The notes under the pieces are model-generated. The model worked only from the letters and a program-made list of their open reading frames with translations. It was not told where the DNA came from and ran no database searches. A program made the position numbers and the translations under genes. A DNA stretch of 11,277 nt from an uncultured Oscillospiraceae bacterium (GTDB lineage: Bacteria > Bacillota > Clostridia > Oscillospirales > Acutalibacteraceae): assembly GCA_900552925.1 (NCBI GenBank), contig USBH01000025.1, positions 1 to 11,277 on the forward strand, given 5' to 3'. Of the stretch, positions 42 to 5,884 are shown one piece after another. Numbering within the stretch: the first letter of the stretch is position 1; each line of letters begins with the position of its first letter.

Positions 42-780
42 AAAACGCGTCGTGCATGCGCTCGAGGTCGTCGGGATTCGAAGGCGGGCCGATCATCAGG
101 TTGACCTGACGGCGCTCGCGCACCTTGATGGCGACCGAAGTGGTGTCGTCTCCGGGGCTGCCGCCGTACAGCTTGTTGCACTCGTCGAGCAGCATGGTGT
201 TGAGCGTCTTGGCCGTATAGCTCGAATCGTACATCATCTCCATATAGTCGATGATGTCCTTGCGCTCCCAGCCGAAGTTCAGCGACATGCCGATGCCGGC
301 ATGGATCGCGCCGTCGCTGAAAGCGATGAAGGTGTCGTCCTCCTGAATCGGGATACGCGTTTTATAGATGGTTTTTCCTCCGACTTCCACTTCCTCGCGC
401 GGGTACTCCAGATTCTTTCCGTTGCGCAGCATCACGACGAACGGGTTGTCATACTGGATGATTTCCGCCTCTTCGTTTTCGATGATGCGGATGATGGTGA
501 ACGTGGAGTAGGCAACGCCGCGCACAGAGCAGATCGGCAGCGTGGAAGCGATCGTTTCCACGCAGTCCTCCACCTGCATCCCCTCCGCCATCATCGTGGA
601 GATGATCTTGGAGGTCAGTGTGGAAAGGATGTTGGCCTTGACGCCGCTGCCCATGCCGTCGGCCAAAACGACGACTGTGGAATTTTCGCCCTGCGGAACG
701 ATATCGACATGGTCGCCGCAGAGCTGCTCGCCGTGTTTATTCAGGCTCATGAAGCCGATATCAGTACATAGATTATTCAT
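42..780 (-). CDS. SpoIIE-family PP2C-type serine/threonine phosphatase (3' end missing)
   Basis: Translating the minus strand from ATG at 780 gives 246 open codons up to the adapter, with no stop. The protein starts MNNLCTDIGFMSLNKHGEQL and carries PP2C metal-binding signatures: GD at residues 22-23, LADGMGSG at 39-46, FSDG at 154-157 and GDDTTS at 210-215. These are typical of SpoIIE-like phosphatases, which remove phosphate from Ser/Thr of partner proteins such as anti-anti-sigma factors. From memory, family members encoded beside HydS-type hydrogenases are about 390 aa, so roughly 140 residues are missing. The start overlaps the end of the hydS-like gene by 8 nt (ATGAATAA), implying translational coupling, and the upstream ribosome binding site is weak. 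No predicted transmembrane segment is seen in the visible part. It is the likely output of the adjacent sensor. The substrate is unknown, and no kinase or STAS partner lies in the window. Confidence 0.9.
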
Positions 781-2446
781 CTTTCAGCGAATCCTTTAAC
801 TTCGTGAGAGCTATCTTCGTCTCCGCCGTCGTTTCGCCAAGCAGCGACGCGATTTCCTGAACCACGCGCATCTGCTTCTCGATCACGCGGTTGGTGACCT
901 CGATAGTCTGCTGGCCCATCTTCTCTTTCTTCATGCGCTCGTCGACCTCAGCGGTCACGTCGCGCATCGTGCAGATCAGAATATGATAGCTCCGATCGTA
1001 CAGGATCGTCTGATCCACATAGCGATTGTACTCGGCGAGGTAGACGCGCTCGTCGTGGAGGGCGCGGCCCGTCTGCATGACATCGAGGAACGGGCGCGGG
1101 TCCAGAATGCGGATGACCGGCTCGCCGATGATGTCCGATGCGTTCTGGATGTTCATCAGCTTGCGCGCAGACGCGTTGATCTGCTGTACCTCCAGCGCTT
1201 CGTTGAGGACGAAGATGCCGTTTGCCGAGTTGTTGATGATCGTATCGGAGAAGGATTCCGCCTTGCCGAGCAGGTACGGCAGGCACATCGTGATTTCGGC
1301 CTTGCCCTGATAGACCGCAACGGCCTTTTCGCGGCAGGAATTGTAGCCGCAGGCGCCGCAGTTGAGCTCGTGCTCGGGACGGGTCTTGCCCATCTTGCGC
1401 AGGATCGCCTCGATCTCCGCGGTGCCGGGCATCTGGCGGTGCAGGCCGACAAACTCGAAGTTGTGGTGAATCGCCTCGGAGGCCGGCTGCTCAACGTTGA
1501 AGTCCCGCTTGCCGGCATACTTGTTCACCGCAATGAAATCCTGGATCGGCAGGCGCTTGTCGTGGTCCATGGCCGGGCCGTTGATGCAGCTGCCGACGCA
1601 GGCGCTCATCTCGATAAAGCAGTTGCCCATGTTGCCGCTGACAATATCGTGAAGGGCCGCGATGCAGTTTTCAAGGCCGTCGATCGCCATGTATGTATAC
1701 TCGGGATCGTCGCAGGCCATGCTGCGCAGAATGCCGCCGGTCGTCGGGAACAGACGCGCGCGGCTCTCTTCGTTGTGGTCGTCTCCGGCTTCCACCGAAA
1801 GATTTTCACCCTGCAGCCATGCGGTCAGCTCTTCGAAGGTCAGCACGCAGTCGACGTACGGGCTTTCGTCGCATTCCGCCTTTTTGGAGATGCAGGGACC
1901 GATGAACACGGTCTTGGCCTCCGGGTCCTGCTCCTTGATGCGCTTGCAGTGCGCCTGCATCGGCGAGAGCACCGGTGCGAGGAACGGCAGCGCTTCGGGA
2001 TAATACTTCTGGATCATTGTGTTGACGGAGTGGCAGCAGGTGGAGATGATGACCTTCTGCCGGCGCTCCGCGATGATTTTTTCGTATTCGGTCTTGACGA
2101 TCGACGCGCCGATCGCGGTTTCCTCCACCTCGTCGAAGCCGAGCTTCTTGAGCGCGGCCTTCATCGTGTCGATCGTAGCGCCCGGATAATTCGCAACAAA
2201 GGAAGGCGCAAGGCTGACGACCACGCGGCTGCCGCTGTTCAGAAGCGCCTGCACGGCCGGAACGTCATTGCGGATCTCCTTGGCGTTCTGGGGACATACG
2301 ACGAAGCACTGGCCGCAGAGCACGCATTCGTCCTTGACGATATGCGCCTGATCCGACTGGAACTTGATGGACTTCACCGGACAGTGCCGAATACATTTGT
2401 AGCAGTTTTTGCAGTTGGACTTTTTGAGTTTCAGGTAATCTGGCAT
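773..2446 (-). CDS. hydS: HydS-type sensory [FeFe]-hydrogenase with C-terminal PAS domain
   Basis: This 557-aa cytoplasmic Fe-S protein has, in order: two [4Fe-4S] ferredoxin motifs (C12/15/18/22 and C41/44/47/51); an [FeFe]-hydrogenase H-domain at about 70-340; another Fe-S motif (C363, C366, C371, C388; NCGACGYNSC); a PAS domain at about 396-500; and a C-terminal helix ending KLKDSLKDE. H-cluster motifs are STCCH (C137, C138), PCISKKAE (C185, K188, E191) and EMSACVGSC (C283, C287), so all four cluster-ligand cysteines are present. The bulky pocket residues of catalytic enzymes are changed: the Met of MPC is Gly183 and the Met before the third-motif Cys is Ser281. That pattern and the PAS domain match putatively sensory group C enzymes rather than H2-producing HydA. 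Start: ATG at 2446, with AGAGGATAAGGGGT just upstream and the thioesterase stop only 5 nt away. It likely senses H2 or electron-carrier redox state and signals to the overlapping phosphatase gene. Catalytic activity is not shown by the sequence. Confidence 0.9.
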   Translation of the reverse strand: MPDYLKLKKSNCKNCYKCIRHCPVKSIKFQSDQAHIVKDECVLCGQCFVVCPQNAKEIRNDVPAVQALLNSGSRVVVSLAPSFVANYPGATIDTMKAALKKLGFDEVEETAIGASIVKTEYEKIIAERRQKVIISTCCHSVNTMIQKYYPEALPFLAPVLSPMQAHCKRIKEQDPEAKTVFIGPCISKKAECDESPYVDCVLTFEELTAWLQGENLSVEAGDDHNEESRARLFPTTGGILRSMACDDPEYTYMAIDGLENCIAALHDIVSGNMGNCFIEMSACVGSCINGPAMDHDKRLPIQDFIAVNKYAGKRDFNVEQPASEAIHHNFEFVGLHRQMPGTAEIEAILRKMGKTRPEHELNCGACGYNSCREKAVAVYQGKAEITMCLPYLLGKAESFSDTIINNSANGIFVLNEALEVQQINASARKLMNIQNASDIIGEPVIRILDPRPFLDVMQTGRALHDERVYLAEYNRYVDQTILYDRSYHILICTMRDVTAEVDERMKKEKMGQQTIEVTNRVIEKQMRVVQEIASLLGETTAETKIALTKLKDSLKDE

Positions 2447-2451
2447 ACCCC

Positions 2452-2847
2452 TTATCCTCTCTTTTTTGCGGCTTTTGCCACGAACTTTTCATCTACAACA
2501 ATAAATCTTTCATGCGTTCCCGTGCCGATCAGTCCGGCGTCGTCGAACGCTTTCACCGTGAATACGAGCCGCCGGCCGTCAATCTCCGTAAGCTCGCTTT
2601 CCGCGGTGACCCGCATGCCGACCGGCGTTGCGGAGACGTGCTCGACGTTCATCAGCGTGCCGACCGTCCCCATGCCCGACTCCAGTTCGGCGGCCACAGA
2701 CCGGTATGCCGCCGACTCCATCAGCGCGACCATGGCGGGCGTCGCGAAAACATCCAGCGTTCCGCTGCCCATGGCTTTCGCCGTATTCTGCTCGGTCACG
2801 GCAGTTTCGGCCTGTCCTTTGATTCCTGTACTGAGCAAGAAAATCAC
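2452..2847 (-). CDS. FlK-type hotdog-fold acyl-CoA thioesterase
   Basis: This 131-aa protein resembles the fluoroacetyl-CoA thioesterase (FlK) family, single hotdog-domain enzymes that hydrolyse short acyl-CoAs. The signature GSGTLDVFATPAMVALME is at residues 27-44. Thr36, Glu44 and His70 have exactly the spacing of the FlK catalytic Thr42/Glu50/His76, so the site looks intact. The real substrate is unknown; fluoroacetyl-CoA is unlikely in this context. The longest reading starts at GTG 2847. TTG at 2838 (giving MLSTGIKG) is an alternative that fits the family N-terminus better and has AGGGTG 6 nt upstream, so the start is uncertain by three codons. It lies 47 nt after the ferredoxin gene and 5 nt before the hydS start, clearly inside the same operon. 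Confidence 0.85.
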   Translation of the reverse strand: MIFLLSTGIKGQAETAVTEQNTAKAMGSGTLDVFATPAMVALMESAAYRSVAAELESGMGTVGTLMNVEHVSATPVGMRVTAESELTEIDGRRLVFTVKAFDDAGLIGTGTHERFIVVDEKFVAKAAKKRG

Positions 2848-2894
2848 CCTACCCTATCTGCTTCCGGCTGTAGGCGCCGGCCTGCTGAATGAAA

Positions 2895-3137
2895 TTACTG
2901 AACTTTCGCGAGAACTTCCTTCTCAAAGAATTCGTCGACGGTCTCCGGCGAGACGGAATGCTTCACGCCGTCCACGGTGACGTTGACGCCGTTGACGCAG
3001 TCGCCCATGCAGAAGGTGCCGCCGAGCTCGACTTTATCCTCGAGCCCCTTTTCCTGAACGAGCGCCTGAAGCCGCTCGACGATCTGGCGGGAACCCTTGA
3101 GGTGGCACGAACTTCCAATGCAGATAATAACTTTCAT
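2895..3137 (-). CDS. Thioredoxin-like [2Fe-2S] ferredoxin
   Basis: This 80-aa protein starts MKVIICIGSSCHLKGS. It has the four cysteines of the thioredoxin-fold [2Fe-2S] ferredoxin family (related to NuoE and HydC/HndA): C6, C11, C43 and C47, the last two in FCMGDC followed by VNGVNVTV. Members are small soluble electron carriers, or standalone versions of the [2Fe-2S] module in bifurcating hydrogenases. The start is ATG 3137 with GGAG 10 nt upstream. It sits between rex (92 nt) and the thioesterase gene (47 nt). In Thermotoga and clostridial genomes such a protein commonly accompanies HydS-type genes, so it may pass electrons to or from the sensor; that role is inferred. There is no signal peptide or membrane segment. 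Confidence 0.9.
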   Translation of the reverse strand: MKVIICIGSSCHLKGSRQIVERLQALVQEKGLEDKVELGGTFCMGDCVNGVNVTVDGVKHSVSPETVDEFFEKEVLAKVQ

Positions 3138-3182
3138 TTGAATCTTTCTCCGTTTCTTTAATAGAGTATTGATATTATTCTA

Positions 3183-3213
3183 AGGCGGATAACGGAGCGA
3201 CCGTGCTCCGCCT
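3183..3213 (-). other. Intergenic hairpin between rex and the ferredoxin gene
   Basis: A 7-bp inverted repeat (AGGCGGA / TCCGCCT) encloses a second, mutually exclusive 6-bp repeat, CGGAGC (3193-3198) with GCTCCG (3205-3210). On the transcribed strand it is followed by TTAGAATAAT rather than a T-run, so it is not a convincing intrinsic terminator. It could be an attenuator, a processing site or a stabiliser that changes expression of the downstream genes relative to rex. I found no strong promoter in the rest of this 92-nt gap. Confidence 0.4.
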
Positions 3214-3229
3214 GAGCAACTTGTTTGTG

Positions 3230-3868
3230 TCAGCGCGCTTCAAACCCTTCACGCAGCTGCTTGGAGAGCAGCGCGAGGGACGCGGCCAGGTTTTCATTAT
3301 GCACAAGGACGCCGTCCGGCACCTCGAGGTGGACCGGGGCGAAATTCCAGATTGCGAGGATTCCGCTTTCGATGAGCAGATTGCATATTGCCTGCGCGTT
3401 TTCCGCCGGGACCGTGATGATGCCGATCCGCACGCGCATCCGCTCGCACAGATCCATCAGCTTATCCATCGGCAGAATGCGCTTGCCGCCGTAATCGTCG
3501 TCGTAAAGCTCCTCATCGATATCGAAGGCGGCGACGATATTCATGCCGCAGTCGCGAAAGCCCTTGTAGGTCAAGAGCGCTTTGCCGAGCTTCCCGGCGC
3601 CGACGATGATCGCGTCGTCCACGTCGTTATAGCCCAGAAACGCTTCGAGCTCCGCGATCAGATCCGCCGTCTTATACCCGATTTTCGGCTTGCCGGCCGT
3701 GCTGACCGAGGCCAGATCCTTGCGCACGACCACATGGTTGAGGCGAAGCGCTTCGGAAATTGTTGTTGCGGAAATATGTTCAGGCTGATTTTCGCCGAAT
3801 TGTTTCAGATAATTCAGGTAAAGCGGCAATCTGAGCAGCGTCTGCTTCGATATGCTGCGGTTCACCAT
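3230..3868 (-). CDS. rex: Redox-sensing transcriptional repressor Rex
   Basis: Rex is a homodimeric repressor that releases DNA when NADH rises, controlling fermentation, hydrogenase and NADH-using genes in Gram-positive bacteria. The 212-aa product has an N-terminal winged helix (RLPLYLNYL at 13-21, recognition region around VRKDL at 48-52) and a Rossmann domain with GAGKLGKAL at 90-98, FDID at 115-118 and WNFAP near the C-terminus, all family signatures. The usual Asn of the GxGNLG loop is Lys93. I chose ATG 3868 because GAGGTG (3878-3883) sits 9 nt upstream and the protein then starts like other Rex proteins. A GTG at 3892 would add eight residues and lie almost in the operator. It is first in the redox operon, 85 nt downstream of the LysR gene, and is preceded by its own likely operator. 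Confidence 0.94.
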   Translation of the reverse strand: MVNRSISKQTLLRLPLYLNYLKQFGENQPEHISATTISEALRLNHVVVRKDLASVSTAGKPKIGYKTADLIAELEAFLGYNDVDDAIIVGAGKLGKALLTYKGFRDCGMNIVAAFDIDEELYDDDYGGKRILPMDKLMDLCERMRVRIGIITVPAENAQAICNLLIESGILAIWNFAPVHLEVPDGVLVHNENLAASLALLSKQLREGFEAR

Positions 3869-3893
3869 AAGCAGTGCCACCTCGCTATCCACA

Positions 3894-3911
3894 TTGATAA
3901 TACATTAACAT
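3894..3911 (-). promoter_or_regulatory. Rex operator upstream of rex
   Basis: The 18-bp site reads TTGATAA-TACA-TTAACAT on the plus strand. The Rex consensus is TTGTTAA-N4-TTAACAA, so it differs at one base in each half. It lies 25 bp upstream of the chosen rex start and overlaps a possible -10 hexamer (TATTAT on the minus strand, 3897-3902). No good -35 could be matched. Autoregulation of Rex, and redox control of the genes after it, is inferred. Confidence 0.75.
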
Positions 3912-3953: not shown

Positions 3954-4922
3954 TTATTGAGCGATATAGGAAGGCTCTGCTGCGCCGTGATACAGCGCTT
4001 CAAGCTGGTCGCGCACCGCGTGGAGCTTTTCGATGAAGGCCTTATCCACCGCCGTGTATTTGTACTCCTTTTTGGACACCAGAATGTCGCGGTAGATGCG
4101 CCGCTTGCTGCCCCGGCATTGCCGGAGAACAAGGCCGTAGCGCTTGAGCTGCTCCGGCGCAATCGGCGAAACCCACATGTACGTGTTCGGCACCGTGCTG
4201 AGCAGGTCCATCTGGCTGCCGCGGCTGTACAGGTAGATCCGCTTCGTCACGTCGTCCGCCATCTCCGCTTTCTTGATGTCGGACATCGGCAGCGAAGGGA
4301 CAAACGGATCGCCGTGGCAGAGCTCGATGTAGCCGGAAAGGTCCTCGATGCAGAGGTCCTCTTTTGCGGCAAGCGGGTCCTTTTCCGAAAGCAGAAGCCG
4401 GTATTCGAACTCCCAGACAAATTCGGATTTCATGCCCTTGTCGCGCAGCATATTGTCGAAGAAGCGCTCGAAAACCGTCTGGAAGCGGACGATGCCGAGC
4501 CCGTAGTTTTCCTGCGCGATGTTGCGGATCGCGCGCATGGCGTTCGTTTCCTTGAAGGTAAATTCGATCTCCTTCGTCATATCCGCCTCGCGCACGAATT
4601 TCGTGAACGCATCGACGATGTAGCTCGCGCGCGGCACGGAGATGCTGAACTTCAGCTTATTGTTTTTTTCGGGACGATAAAGCGCCTCCACCTCTTCGAT
4701 CTGCGCCAGGATGCTCTTCGCGTAAACGAGGAATTCCTCTCCCTGCGGCGTCGGGACGATGCCCTTGGACGTGCGCTTGAAGATCTTCACGCCCAGCGTC
4801 TCTTCGAGATCCTTGATTCCGCGGCTCAGGTTCGGCTGCCCCATATACAGGTTTTCAGCCGCTTTCGTGATGGAAGCGGTTTTTTCAACCTCTACGGCAT
4901 ATTTCAGGTGGGCAATATTCAT
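3954..4922 (-). CDS. LysR-family transcriptional regulator
   Basis: This 322-aa regulator has a typical LysR layout: an N-terminal winged helix-turn-helix at about residues 1-60 (ASITKAAENLYMGQPNLSR, then LEETLGVKIFKR), a linker helix, and a C-terminal effector-binding domain of the periplasmic-binding-protein fold. The effector cannot be told from the sequence. The start is ATG 4922 with GAGGT (4929-4933) upstream. It has its own strong promoter and is separated from the dxs-recN operon by a probable terminator. No divergent gene is present, which is unusual for LysR regulators that normally control a divergent neighbour. The next gene in the same direction is rex, so control of the redox operon is possible but unproven. 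I did not find a clear terminator between the LysR gene and rex, so read-through may also occur. Confidence 0.92.
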   Translation of the reverse strand: MNIAHLKYAVEVEKTASITKAAENLYMGQPNLSRGIKDLEETLGVKIFKRTSKGIVPTPQGEEFLVYAKSILAQIEEVEALYRPEKNNKLKFSISVPRASYIVDAFTKFVREADMTKEIEFTFKETNAMRAIRNIAQENYGLGIVRFQTVFERFFDNMLRDKGMKSEFVWEFEYRLLLSEKDPLAAKEDLCIEDLSGYIELCHGDPFVPSLPMSDIKKAEMADDVTKRIYLYSRGSQMDLLSTVPNTYMWVSPIAPEQLKRYGLVLRQCRGSKRRIYRDILVSKKEYKYTAVDKAFIEKLHAVRDQLEALYHGAAEPSYIAQ

Positions 4923-5383: not shown

Positions 5384-5884
5384 TTACTTTTTGCCGTACT
5401 TCGGGGTATAGGCCCACTTCGGCAGAAGAAAAGCGCCGGCAAAAAGCAAAAGAACGGCGATGCCCAGAAGGATCCAGAAAACCGGCCTTGTGAGAAGCGC
5501 GGCGAAGCGGCCGAGCACCGGGAGGCTGAACGGTACGATTCCCTCCGACGCTTCGAACGGGATCGCGTCGCCGCCGGCTGTGTAAAGGGTGCGCGCCGCA
5601 TTGTCCGTTTCCAGAATGGTGCGGACCGCCGTGCAGCCCTGACTGCGGACGGCGACAGCATCGCCCGCCTGCAGCGTTTCCGCCGGGACATACCGGTAAT
5701 AGGCGAGCGCGCCTGCGGGATGCTGCGTGTTATCGGTCTCGGATACGGAAAACGGCCTGTACCCGAAAATCGCCGGCGCGGCAGCGAGGCACACAAGCAG
5801 TGCCACTGCCAAAAAGACAAGCAAAACGCCTTTACAGAACAGAGCGACAAAGGGAACAAAGCGGGACAGGCGGCGAACACTCAC
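5384..5884 (-). CDS. Two-TM SipW/S26-like membrane protein, probably catalytically dead
   Basis: This 166-aa protein has an N-terminal hydrophobic segment (about 12-40), an extracytoplasmic domain (about 43-130) and a second membrane segment (about 135-155). The fold pattern resembles SipW-type signal peptidases: PF at 44-45, PAGAL at 56-60, the AGD at 73-75, GGDA at 104-107, and PFSLPVLGRF at 118-127, which mimics their FSIPYLG motif. Aligned without gaps, the catalytic Ser of SGSMEP falls on Thr50 and the His of THRI is replaced (AVRTIL, 86-91). It is thus probably not a peptidase; a scaffold or regulatory role is conceivable. The start is GTG 5884, overlapping the recN stop by 4 nt (GTGA), with GGGAG 4 nt upstream, so it is translationally coupled to recN. 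Family assignment is by eye. Confidence 0.7.
   Translation of the reverse strand: MSVRRLSRFVPFVALFCKGVLLVFLAVALLVCLAAAPAIFGYRPFSVSETDNTQHPAGALAYYRYVPAETLQAGDAVAVRSQGCTAVRTILETDNAARTLYTAGGDAIPFEASEGIVPFSLPVLGRFAALLTRPVFWILLGIAVLLLFAGAFLLPKWAYTPKYGKK

Follow-up and report, generated by a model that had tools for sequence, protein, structure and literature searches.

We report here on an operon at the beginning of a stretch of 11,277 bases (G+C 59%; contig USBH01000025.1 of an uncultured Oscillospiraceae bacterium), hereafter referred to as the window. On its minus strand the genes for the repressor Rex, a small [2Fe-2S] protein (fdx), a FlK-type thioesterase, the PAS-bearing [FeFe] hydrogenase HydS and a SpoIIE/PP2C-type phosphatase follow one another, and we consider it probable that they represent a compact, kinase-less and Rex-linked operon of the hydS/hfs type that carries a thioesterase gene and works in the way proposed below. 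Judged by domains and gene order, the operon is a form of the kind described as hfsABCD in Thermoanaerobacterium and as the HydS cluster of Ruminococcus albus. This kind of operon is already known, and what is new in detail is the thioesterase gene in front of hydS.

Composition of the operon

Profile searches identify all five genes in the order and on the strand given for them in a preliminary description of this DNA. They are separated by 92 nt (rex to fdx), 47 nt (fdx to thioesterase) and 5 nt (thioesterase to hydS), and the 8-nt overlap of the last two genes read in that description is indeed present at positions 773-780. The rex gene (3230-3868, minus strand) encodes an NADH-responsive repressor and scores 279.5 bits with the profile NF003994, for a cut-off of 130; its start is placed at the ATG at 3868, in line with a relative, with a GTG at 3892 as a possible longer start. 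Membership in the Rex family is indicated by this NCBIfam equivalog profile together with an operator-like site in the gene's own leader, as the preliminary description had held. The fdx gene (2895-3137, minus strand; PF01257) encodes a small thioredoxin-like [2Fe-2S] protein with the cysteines C6, C11, C43 and C47. It is followed by the gene for a predicted FlK-type hot-dog acyl-CoA thioesterase (2452-2847, minus strand; PF22636, E 4e-39), in which T36, E44, H70 and R114 align with FlK structures and the set of Thr, Glu, His and Arg is complete; the counterparts of these four in FlK are active-site residues. In family and in the aligned catalytic residues the protein thus resembles the FlK fluoroacetyl-CoA thioesterase (PDB 3kv7, 3p3f and others), from which it differs by its location in a hydrogenase operon.

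The hydS gene (773-2446, minus strand) encodes a PAS-bearing [FeFe] hydrogenase with matches to PF02906, PF04060 and a PAS profile. The H-domain is recognized by PF02906 with E 1.4e-49, and the PAS domain by PF00989 with 23.1 bits, narrowly above the cut-off of 22.6, while the same domain reaches 36.4 bits in a relative (L016). In an alignment of 30 HydS sequences, all 30 share the eight N-terminal cysteines of two [4Fe-4S] motifs, the C-terminal motif Cx2Cx4Cx16C (C363/C366/C371/C388) and the residues C138, C185, C283 and C287, which by alignment and by analogy with the family we take to be the ligands of the H-cluster. The same 30 sequences carry G183 and S281 at the positions of M353 and M497 of CpI, as assigned by alignment to PDB entries, and a cysteine, C137 (2036-2038, minus strand), at the position of CpI C299. 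The window protein therefore shows the H-domain, the PAS domain, the C-terminal and N-terminal cysteine motifs and the Gly/Ser pair by which group C (M2f) is recognized. Loss of the cysteine at the C299 position, a trait of characterized group C members that we do not take as defining, is absent from it.

Published work is cited in this text by PubMed Central number. The motif Cx2Cx4Cx16C is described for a sensory hydrogenase in PMC8163306, where the two CpI methionine positions are given as Gly/Ser in TmHydS (group C) and as Ser/Leu in TamHydS (group D). HydS of the window is accordingly like TmHydS of Thermotoga maritima (group C, M2f) in its PAS domain, its C-terminal Cx2Cx4Cx16C motif and its Gly/Ser pair, and unlike it at the position of CpI C299, which is Ala131 in TmHydS but C137 here. 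The cysteine of the published A131C variant of TmHydS has a natural equivalent in C137.

The phosphatase gene (42-780, minus strand; PF07228, E 2.5e-16) is incomplete. Positions 1-41 are, by their letters, sequencing adapter and not genome (8-41 are presumably the Nextera transposase adapter), so that genomic sequence begins at position 42 and the SpoIIE/PP2C-type Ser/Thr phosphatase is truncated at residue 246 of about 390, its length being 390-392 residues in 76 relatives. Position 42 was rejected as a gene boundary, as it is the adapter junction. The reading frame stays open through the adapter, and a gene caller would predict an adapter-derived protein tail at 1-41. Five aspartates, D23, D41, D156, D211 and D212, are invariant in 46 aligned relatives and present in the window, and they correspond to the metal ligands of the family. 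A full-length relative (L002) has a predicted SpoIIE/RsbU-type PP2C fold (predicted local distance difference test score, pLDDT, of 86), and its best Foldseek matches are 3pu9 and SpoIIE (5mqh). While the predicted structure matches phosphatases of that type, the present family is unlike them in having an additional, conserved domain of about 165 residues at the C-terminus (L002:8323-8820; mean column identity 80% in 35 sequences, pLDDT 88). For the predicted domain of L002, Foldseek returned no match at E<=0.001. Structural comparison yielded middling Z scores, the best of which was 9.7 for chain B of 6s6y, a formyltransferase/hydrolase complex, followed by lower values for formylmethanofuran dehydrogenase subunits and complex I chain G, and we have built nothing on this assignment. 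By gene order, the enzyme would be HfsC-like.

All five operon genes are under purifying selection, as evidenced by ratios of nonsynonymous to synonymous change (pN/pS) against the closest relative of 0.11 for the phosphatase part, 0.20 for HydS, 0.22 for the thioesterase, 0.13 for fdx and 0.12 for Rex.

A constant phosphatase and an optional kinase

We compared the surroundings of hydS in the best 80 of 579 relatives, so that the counts from these loci describe close relatives only. The gene immediately following hydS encodes the phosphatase in 80 of 80, and a chance neighbor was rejected on this ground. The two genes overlap by 8 nt in 67 loci, by 14 nt in 8 and by 41 nt in 1, the latter two values reflecting start choices, and are separated by 12-21 nt in the remaining 4. 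The fullest gene order found is LysR, Rex, AdhE, kinase, one or two [2Fe-2S] proteins, HydS, phosphatase and a second [FeFe] hydrogenase. The small [2Fe-2S] gene of the same cluster as fdx is present in 72 of 80 loci, many of which have two copies just before hydS; AdhE-cluster genes are found in 46, Rex in 26-27. Of 93 loci, 79 have a second [FeFe] hydrogenase no more than 3 kb downstream, with the window and other cut contigs counted as misses. The kinase of these loci is an APH/RIO-like protein of 249 residues (PF01636, E 1.7e-11) that occurs in 56 of 80, and an upstream AdhE gene is present in 36 of 42 kinase-bearing loci versus 3 of 21 kinase-less ones. The phosphatase is thus the constant partner of HydS, whereas the kinase is an optional one with a tendency to accompany AdhE.

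The association of kinase and HydS was also evident in a survey of 394 genomes of the order to which genome G002 belongs. Of 104 HydS matches, 21 were excluded as distant (35-46% identity), and 83 matches in 82 genomes remained. The kinase (E<=1e-40) was detected in 57 of these 82 genomes and in 62 of the 312 others (odds ratio 9.2, p 6e-17; this and the further Fisher p-values carry no correction for kinship), and 3 of the 62 carry a distant HydS. Of the 82, 42 have it no farther than 3 kb upstream of hydS. We then looked for the kinase elsewhere in 21 genomes belonging to the 24 kinase-less loci (all but L023, L052 and L078); 12 gave no match at E<=1e-3 and 9 some match, strong or weak, and 3 of 3 controls were matched. 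Since contig ends truncate several of these loci on the upstream side, and most records are titled metagenome-assembled genomes (MAGs), the absence of the kinase may reflect incompleteness.

The preliminary description had paired sensor and phosphatase and had named a phosphatase not conserved beside HydS as the outcome that would speak against the pair; the strict adjacency and the recurrent 8-nt overlap show instead that the two belong together. It had suggested comparing the neighborhoods of HydS homologs for, among others, a hydrogenase, and the relatives do have a second such enzyme downstream. It had seen no histidine kinase or STAS-type partner, and here the relatives offer a possible partner in the APH/RIO-like kinase, of which the window has none; unnamed gene clusters each occur in at most 7 of 80 loci, and targets of the phosphatase may be encoded elsewhere. 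The route from H2 to the phosphatase that it put forward gains from the adjacency and from the tie to Rex, but it is not new, as H2 sensing by way of a Ser/Thr kinase or phosphatase had been proposed before.

A protein of 314 residues, possibly from an insertion element, recurs in or beside the HydS loci L008, L023, L042, L044, L052 and L078; its position is the fdx-hydS interval in L023 and, in L078, the interval from the phosphatase gene to that of the second hydrogenase.

Rex and its operator

A palindrome at 3894-3911, just before rex, deviates by two mismatches from the Rex operator consensus TTGTTAA-N4-TTAACAA and is the sole match in the window at up to 3 mismatches. Shuffled sequences contained 0.09 matches on average, and 17 of 200 shuffles had one or more. 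We extended the scan to 96 sequences (the window, 80 relatives and 15 further stretches; 1,527,188 bases), with gene starts taken from match edges, and obtained 199 sites at up to 3 mismatches. All 17 sites with at most one mismatch are located in the 320 bp preceding rex, adhE or fdx, regions that make up 4.3% of the DNA; the loci being related, these are not 17 independent cases. The operator sites at operon heads link operons of this kind to Rex.

The gap between rex and fdx contains a hairpin (3178-3220, minus strand; fold z -2.59). An intrinsic terminator was rejected for this position, as the hairpin has no T run, and terminator prediction on the minus strand of the gap called none. The corresponding gap in the closest relative (L141) has a hairpin of different sequence at the same place, with z -1.64.

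The closest relatives of the window operon

A tblastn search of the window detected neither kinase nor AdhE. The closest relative found, genome G251, has a HydS of 79% identity, a thioesterase of 78-79% and a Rex of 87%, and its locus L141 repeats the order of the window from dxs to the phosphatase gene and continues with a second [FeFe] hydrogenase. Judging by this genome, it is most likely that the contig end has removed the rest of the phosphatase gene and then a second hydrogenase gene from the window. In the G251 assembly nothing matched the kinase at E<=1e-3, and AdhE was matched not over its full length but only in the half corresponding to the iron-dependent alcohol dehydrogenase. The next relative, G333 (HydS 70%), has the order Rex, AdhE, kinase, fdx, HydS, phosphatase and second hydrogenase, and no FlK match was found in this operon stretch. 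In the HydS tree G333 stands beside the pair of window and G251 on a starred branch. The simplest reading is that the line of the window and G251 lost AdhE and the kinase and gained the thioesterase; as the tree is unrooted, this direction depends on the root. The tree comprises 93 rows and was built by a quick method with the Shimodaira-Hasegawa-like approximate likelihood ratio test (SH-aLRT) as its only support measure, and it carries a long-branch warning for, among others, L144 with L154. Three records titled Bacteroides, Alistipes or Anaerolineae (L056, L057 and L001) have a HydS that falls among Clostridia in it, probably through misbinning of MAG contigs.

The FlK-type gene at the fdx-hydS junction

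The gene order of the window recurs. In 9 of the 82 genomes with a near HydS, and in addition in L001, a FlK gene lies directly before hydS on the same strand with fdx ahead of it, the distance from FlK to hydS being 15-103 nt in the 9 genomes as measured between match edges. In 5 genomes FlK follows the kinase, and in G140, G199 and G410 (L153, L151 and L152) the order AdhE, kinase, FlK is found with HydS absent from the 18 kb fetched. FlK before hydS occurs in several HydS lineages and requires 5-6 changes on the HydS tree; it was therefore gained or lost more than once. An upstream AdhE gene is present in 2 of 10 FlK operons versus 37 of 53 others (p 0.005), a comparison that holds only 4 independent pairs on starred branches, for which 0.05 is out of reach. 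A simple replacement of AdhE by FlK was rejected on this ground and because two operons carry both. We found no link between FlK and HydS in the literature searched, with supplements and subscription papers outside the scope of the search, and the word 'thioesterase' is absent from the main texts of PMC6776011, PMC5707799, PMC11837493 and PMC8163306.

Relation to known operons

In domains and order, hfsABCD of Thermoanaerobacterium resembles the window in the succession of a PAS-bearing [FeFe] hydrogenase and a serine phosphatase. Its next gene encodes a further hydrogenase; one comes next in G251 as well, and the window is cut short of this position. HfsB is a HydS homolog (PMC5707799), HfsC is homologous to serine phosphatases, and HfsD, the ferredoxin-linked hydrogenase of the operon, resembles HydA2 (PMC11837493); the operon is also treated in PMC13277313. 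Different from hfsABCD are the rex gene at the head of the window operon and the FlK thioesterase gene before hydS. Deletion of hfsA or hfsB raised ethanol production and, two- to threefold, the adhE transcript, whereas deletion of hfsC or hfsD left adhE expression unchanged and removal of the whole operon gave no substantial rise in ethanol (PMC5707799).

The HydS/HydA2 cluster of R. albus 7 has in common with the window a Ser/Thr phosphatase and a PAS-bearing, putatively sensory hydrogenase of group C; an alcohol/aldehyde dehydrogenase and a hydrogenase of the ferredoxin-only type are also part of it (PMC6776011). The window differs by the presence of the thioesterase and by the absence of AdhE and kinase, and for the latter reason we file it with the hfs kind and not with the AdhE-kinase form of R. 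albus. The eight-gene R. albus cluster was 111-fold lower in co-culture with an H2 consumer, and its phosphatase subunit was proposed to modify regulators (PMC6776011). Zheng et al., as cited in PMC5707799, had suggested for R. albus that HydS passes H2 sensing through its PAS domain to an adjacent Ser/Thr kinase. A wholly new signaling route was rejected for the window, as the hfs and R. albus clusters share its order and domains.

Proposed mechanism and alternative explanations

In the mechanism that we propose, a high level of NADH would cause Rex to leave its operator and the operon genes to be made, a behavior established for Rex and suggested here by the operator-like site. The H-cluster of HydS would then read the H2 level or the redox state, and the signal would reach the PAS domain and the conserved segment behind it by way of the C-terminal [4Fe-4S] cluster; the parts of this route are present in the protein. 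The PAS domain would set the activity of the SpoIIE-type phosphatase, as their constant adjacency suggests, and the phosphatase would dephosphorylate a protein encoded outside the window and so tune the hydrogenase and the fermentation output, with the second hydrogenase next downstream, as in the closest relative. The thioesterase may hydrolyze short acyl-CoA and so free CoA in an over-reduced fermentation, in a lineage whose closest relative lacks a full-length AdhE; this step is tentative and in our view unlikely to be the correct one. Sensing of H2 or redox state, coupling of PAS domain and phosphatase, expression as a single transcript and the role of the thioesterase are all inferred.

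Several observations weigh against this picture of the operon as a whole. The window is without the kinase and AdhE that 56 and 46 of 80 relatives possess, and the tie to the hfs and R. albus clusters rests on domains and order. The closest relative (L141) retains no more than the left half of the window's Rex site, and with a hairpin between rex and fdx, rex may sit on a separate transcript. In Thermoanaerobacterium thermosaccharolyticum, hfsD alone in a deletion of the whole operon restored high ethanol (PMC11837493), so that the phosphatase is dispensable for the high-ethanol phenotype. Further, the thioesterase may be a passenger, since FlK shows no association with HydS (present in 36 of 82 genomes with a near HydS versus 107 of 312 others, p 0.12) and also follows the AdhE-kinase pair away from HydS.

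As regards the signal, HydS might respond to redox state rather than to H2, with its H-cluster merely a redox centre that follows the ferredoxin potential through the small [2Fe-2S] protein and the phosphatase reporting on ferredoxin reduction. The frequent presence of the small [2Fe-2S] gene, often in two copies before hydS, would agree with this, as would the low turnover of characterized sensory hydrogenases (PMC8163306, PMC10055695), yet the authors of PMC6776011 ascribe the R. albus response primarily to the level of H2. Against it stands also the invariance of the presumed H-cluster ligand cysteines in 30 of 30 aligned HydS, and we hold the redox alternative to be somewhat unlikely.

For the thioesterase, the view that it is a passenger or housekeeping gene outside of H2 signaling deserves to be taken seriously, although we lean against it. 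FlK (E<=1e-20) is common in the order irrespective of HydS, with 143 of all 394 genomes positive. Of the ten genes that flank unlinked FlK copies at 7 loci, 9 match Pfam families, among which there is no hydrogenase, and one encodes a 4Fe-4S protein. A tree of 37 FlK rows, from which 7 longer re-fetched copies of included loci were omitted, is poorly resolved and mixes linked and unlinked copies in one weakly supported half; a single HydS-specific FlK clade was not borne out by it. Against a mere passenger stand its position between fdx and hydS on the same strand in 9 genomes of several HydS lineages and its place behind the AdhE-kinase pair in G140, G199 and G410. The hot-dog fold binds CoA thioesters, and with only 5 nt between its gene and hydS, the thioesterase might instead be an acyl-CoA-binding co-sensor of the HydS-phosphatase pair and not an enzyme. 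We judge this to be very unlikely, as the active-site residues of FlK are all kept and a pure sensor would not need them. A broader proposal, that FlK is an acyl-CoA valve or co-sensor in an H2/NADH module, recruited repeatedly at the [2Fe-2S]-HydS junction, and that in the lineage of the window kinase and AdhE were lost and the phosphatase works without a kinase partner, appears quite improbable to us. The kinase-less, Rex-linked hydS/hfs-type operon with its thioesterase is the reading that we prefer.

Flanking sequence

Upstream of rex the minus strand carries, in this order, dxs (cut), tlyA, nadK, argR, recN, a membrane-type protein gene, a DivIVA-like gene and a gene for a LysR-type regulator (3954-4922; PF00126), and members of the same LysR cluster occur at 36 of the 80 loci of relatives, frequently on the upstream side of the operon. 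The membrane-type protein of 166 residues between recN and the DivIVA-like gene (5384-5884, minus strand) is 35% identical to its counterpart in L141 and had no Pfam or NCBIfam match at E<=0.01. An Rfam search of the window returned nothing at gathering score.

Implications

For PAS-bearing [FeFe] hydrogenases, a Ser/Thr kinase or phosphatase has been proposed as the signal output, with no target given in PMC5707799, PMC6776011 and PMC11837493. The present comparison narrows the question of this output, in that the phosphatase is constant and the kinase is optional. Compact operons without the kinase are small natural systems in which the coupling of HydS and phosphatase can be tested, and the thioesterase provides a testable metabolic arm that, if the proposal holds true, would couple the sensing of H2 to the release of CoA from acyl-CoA.

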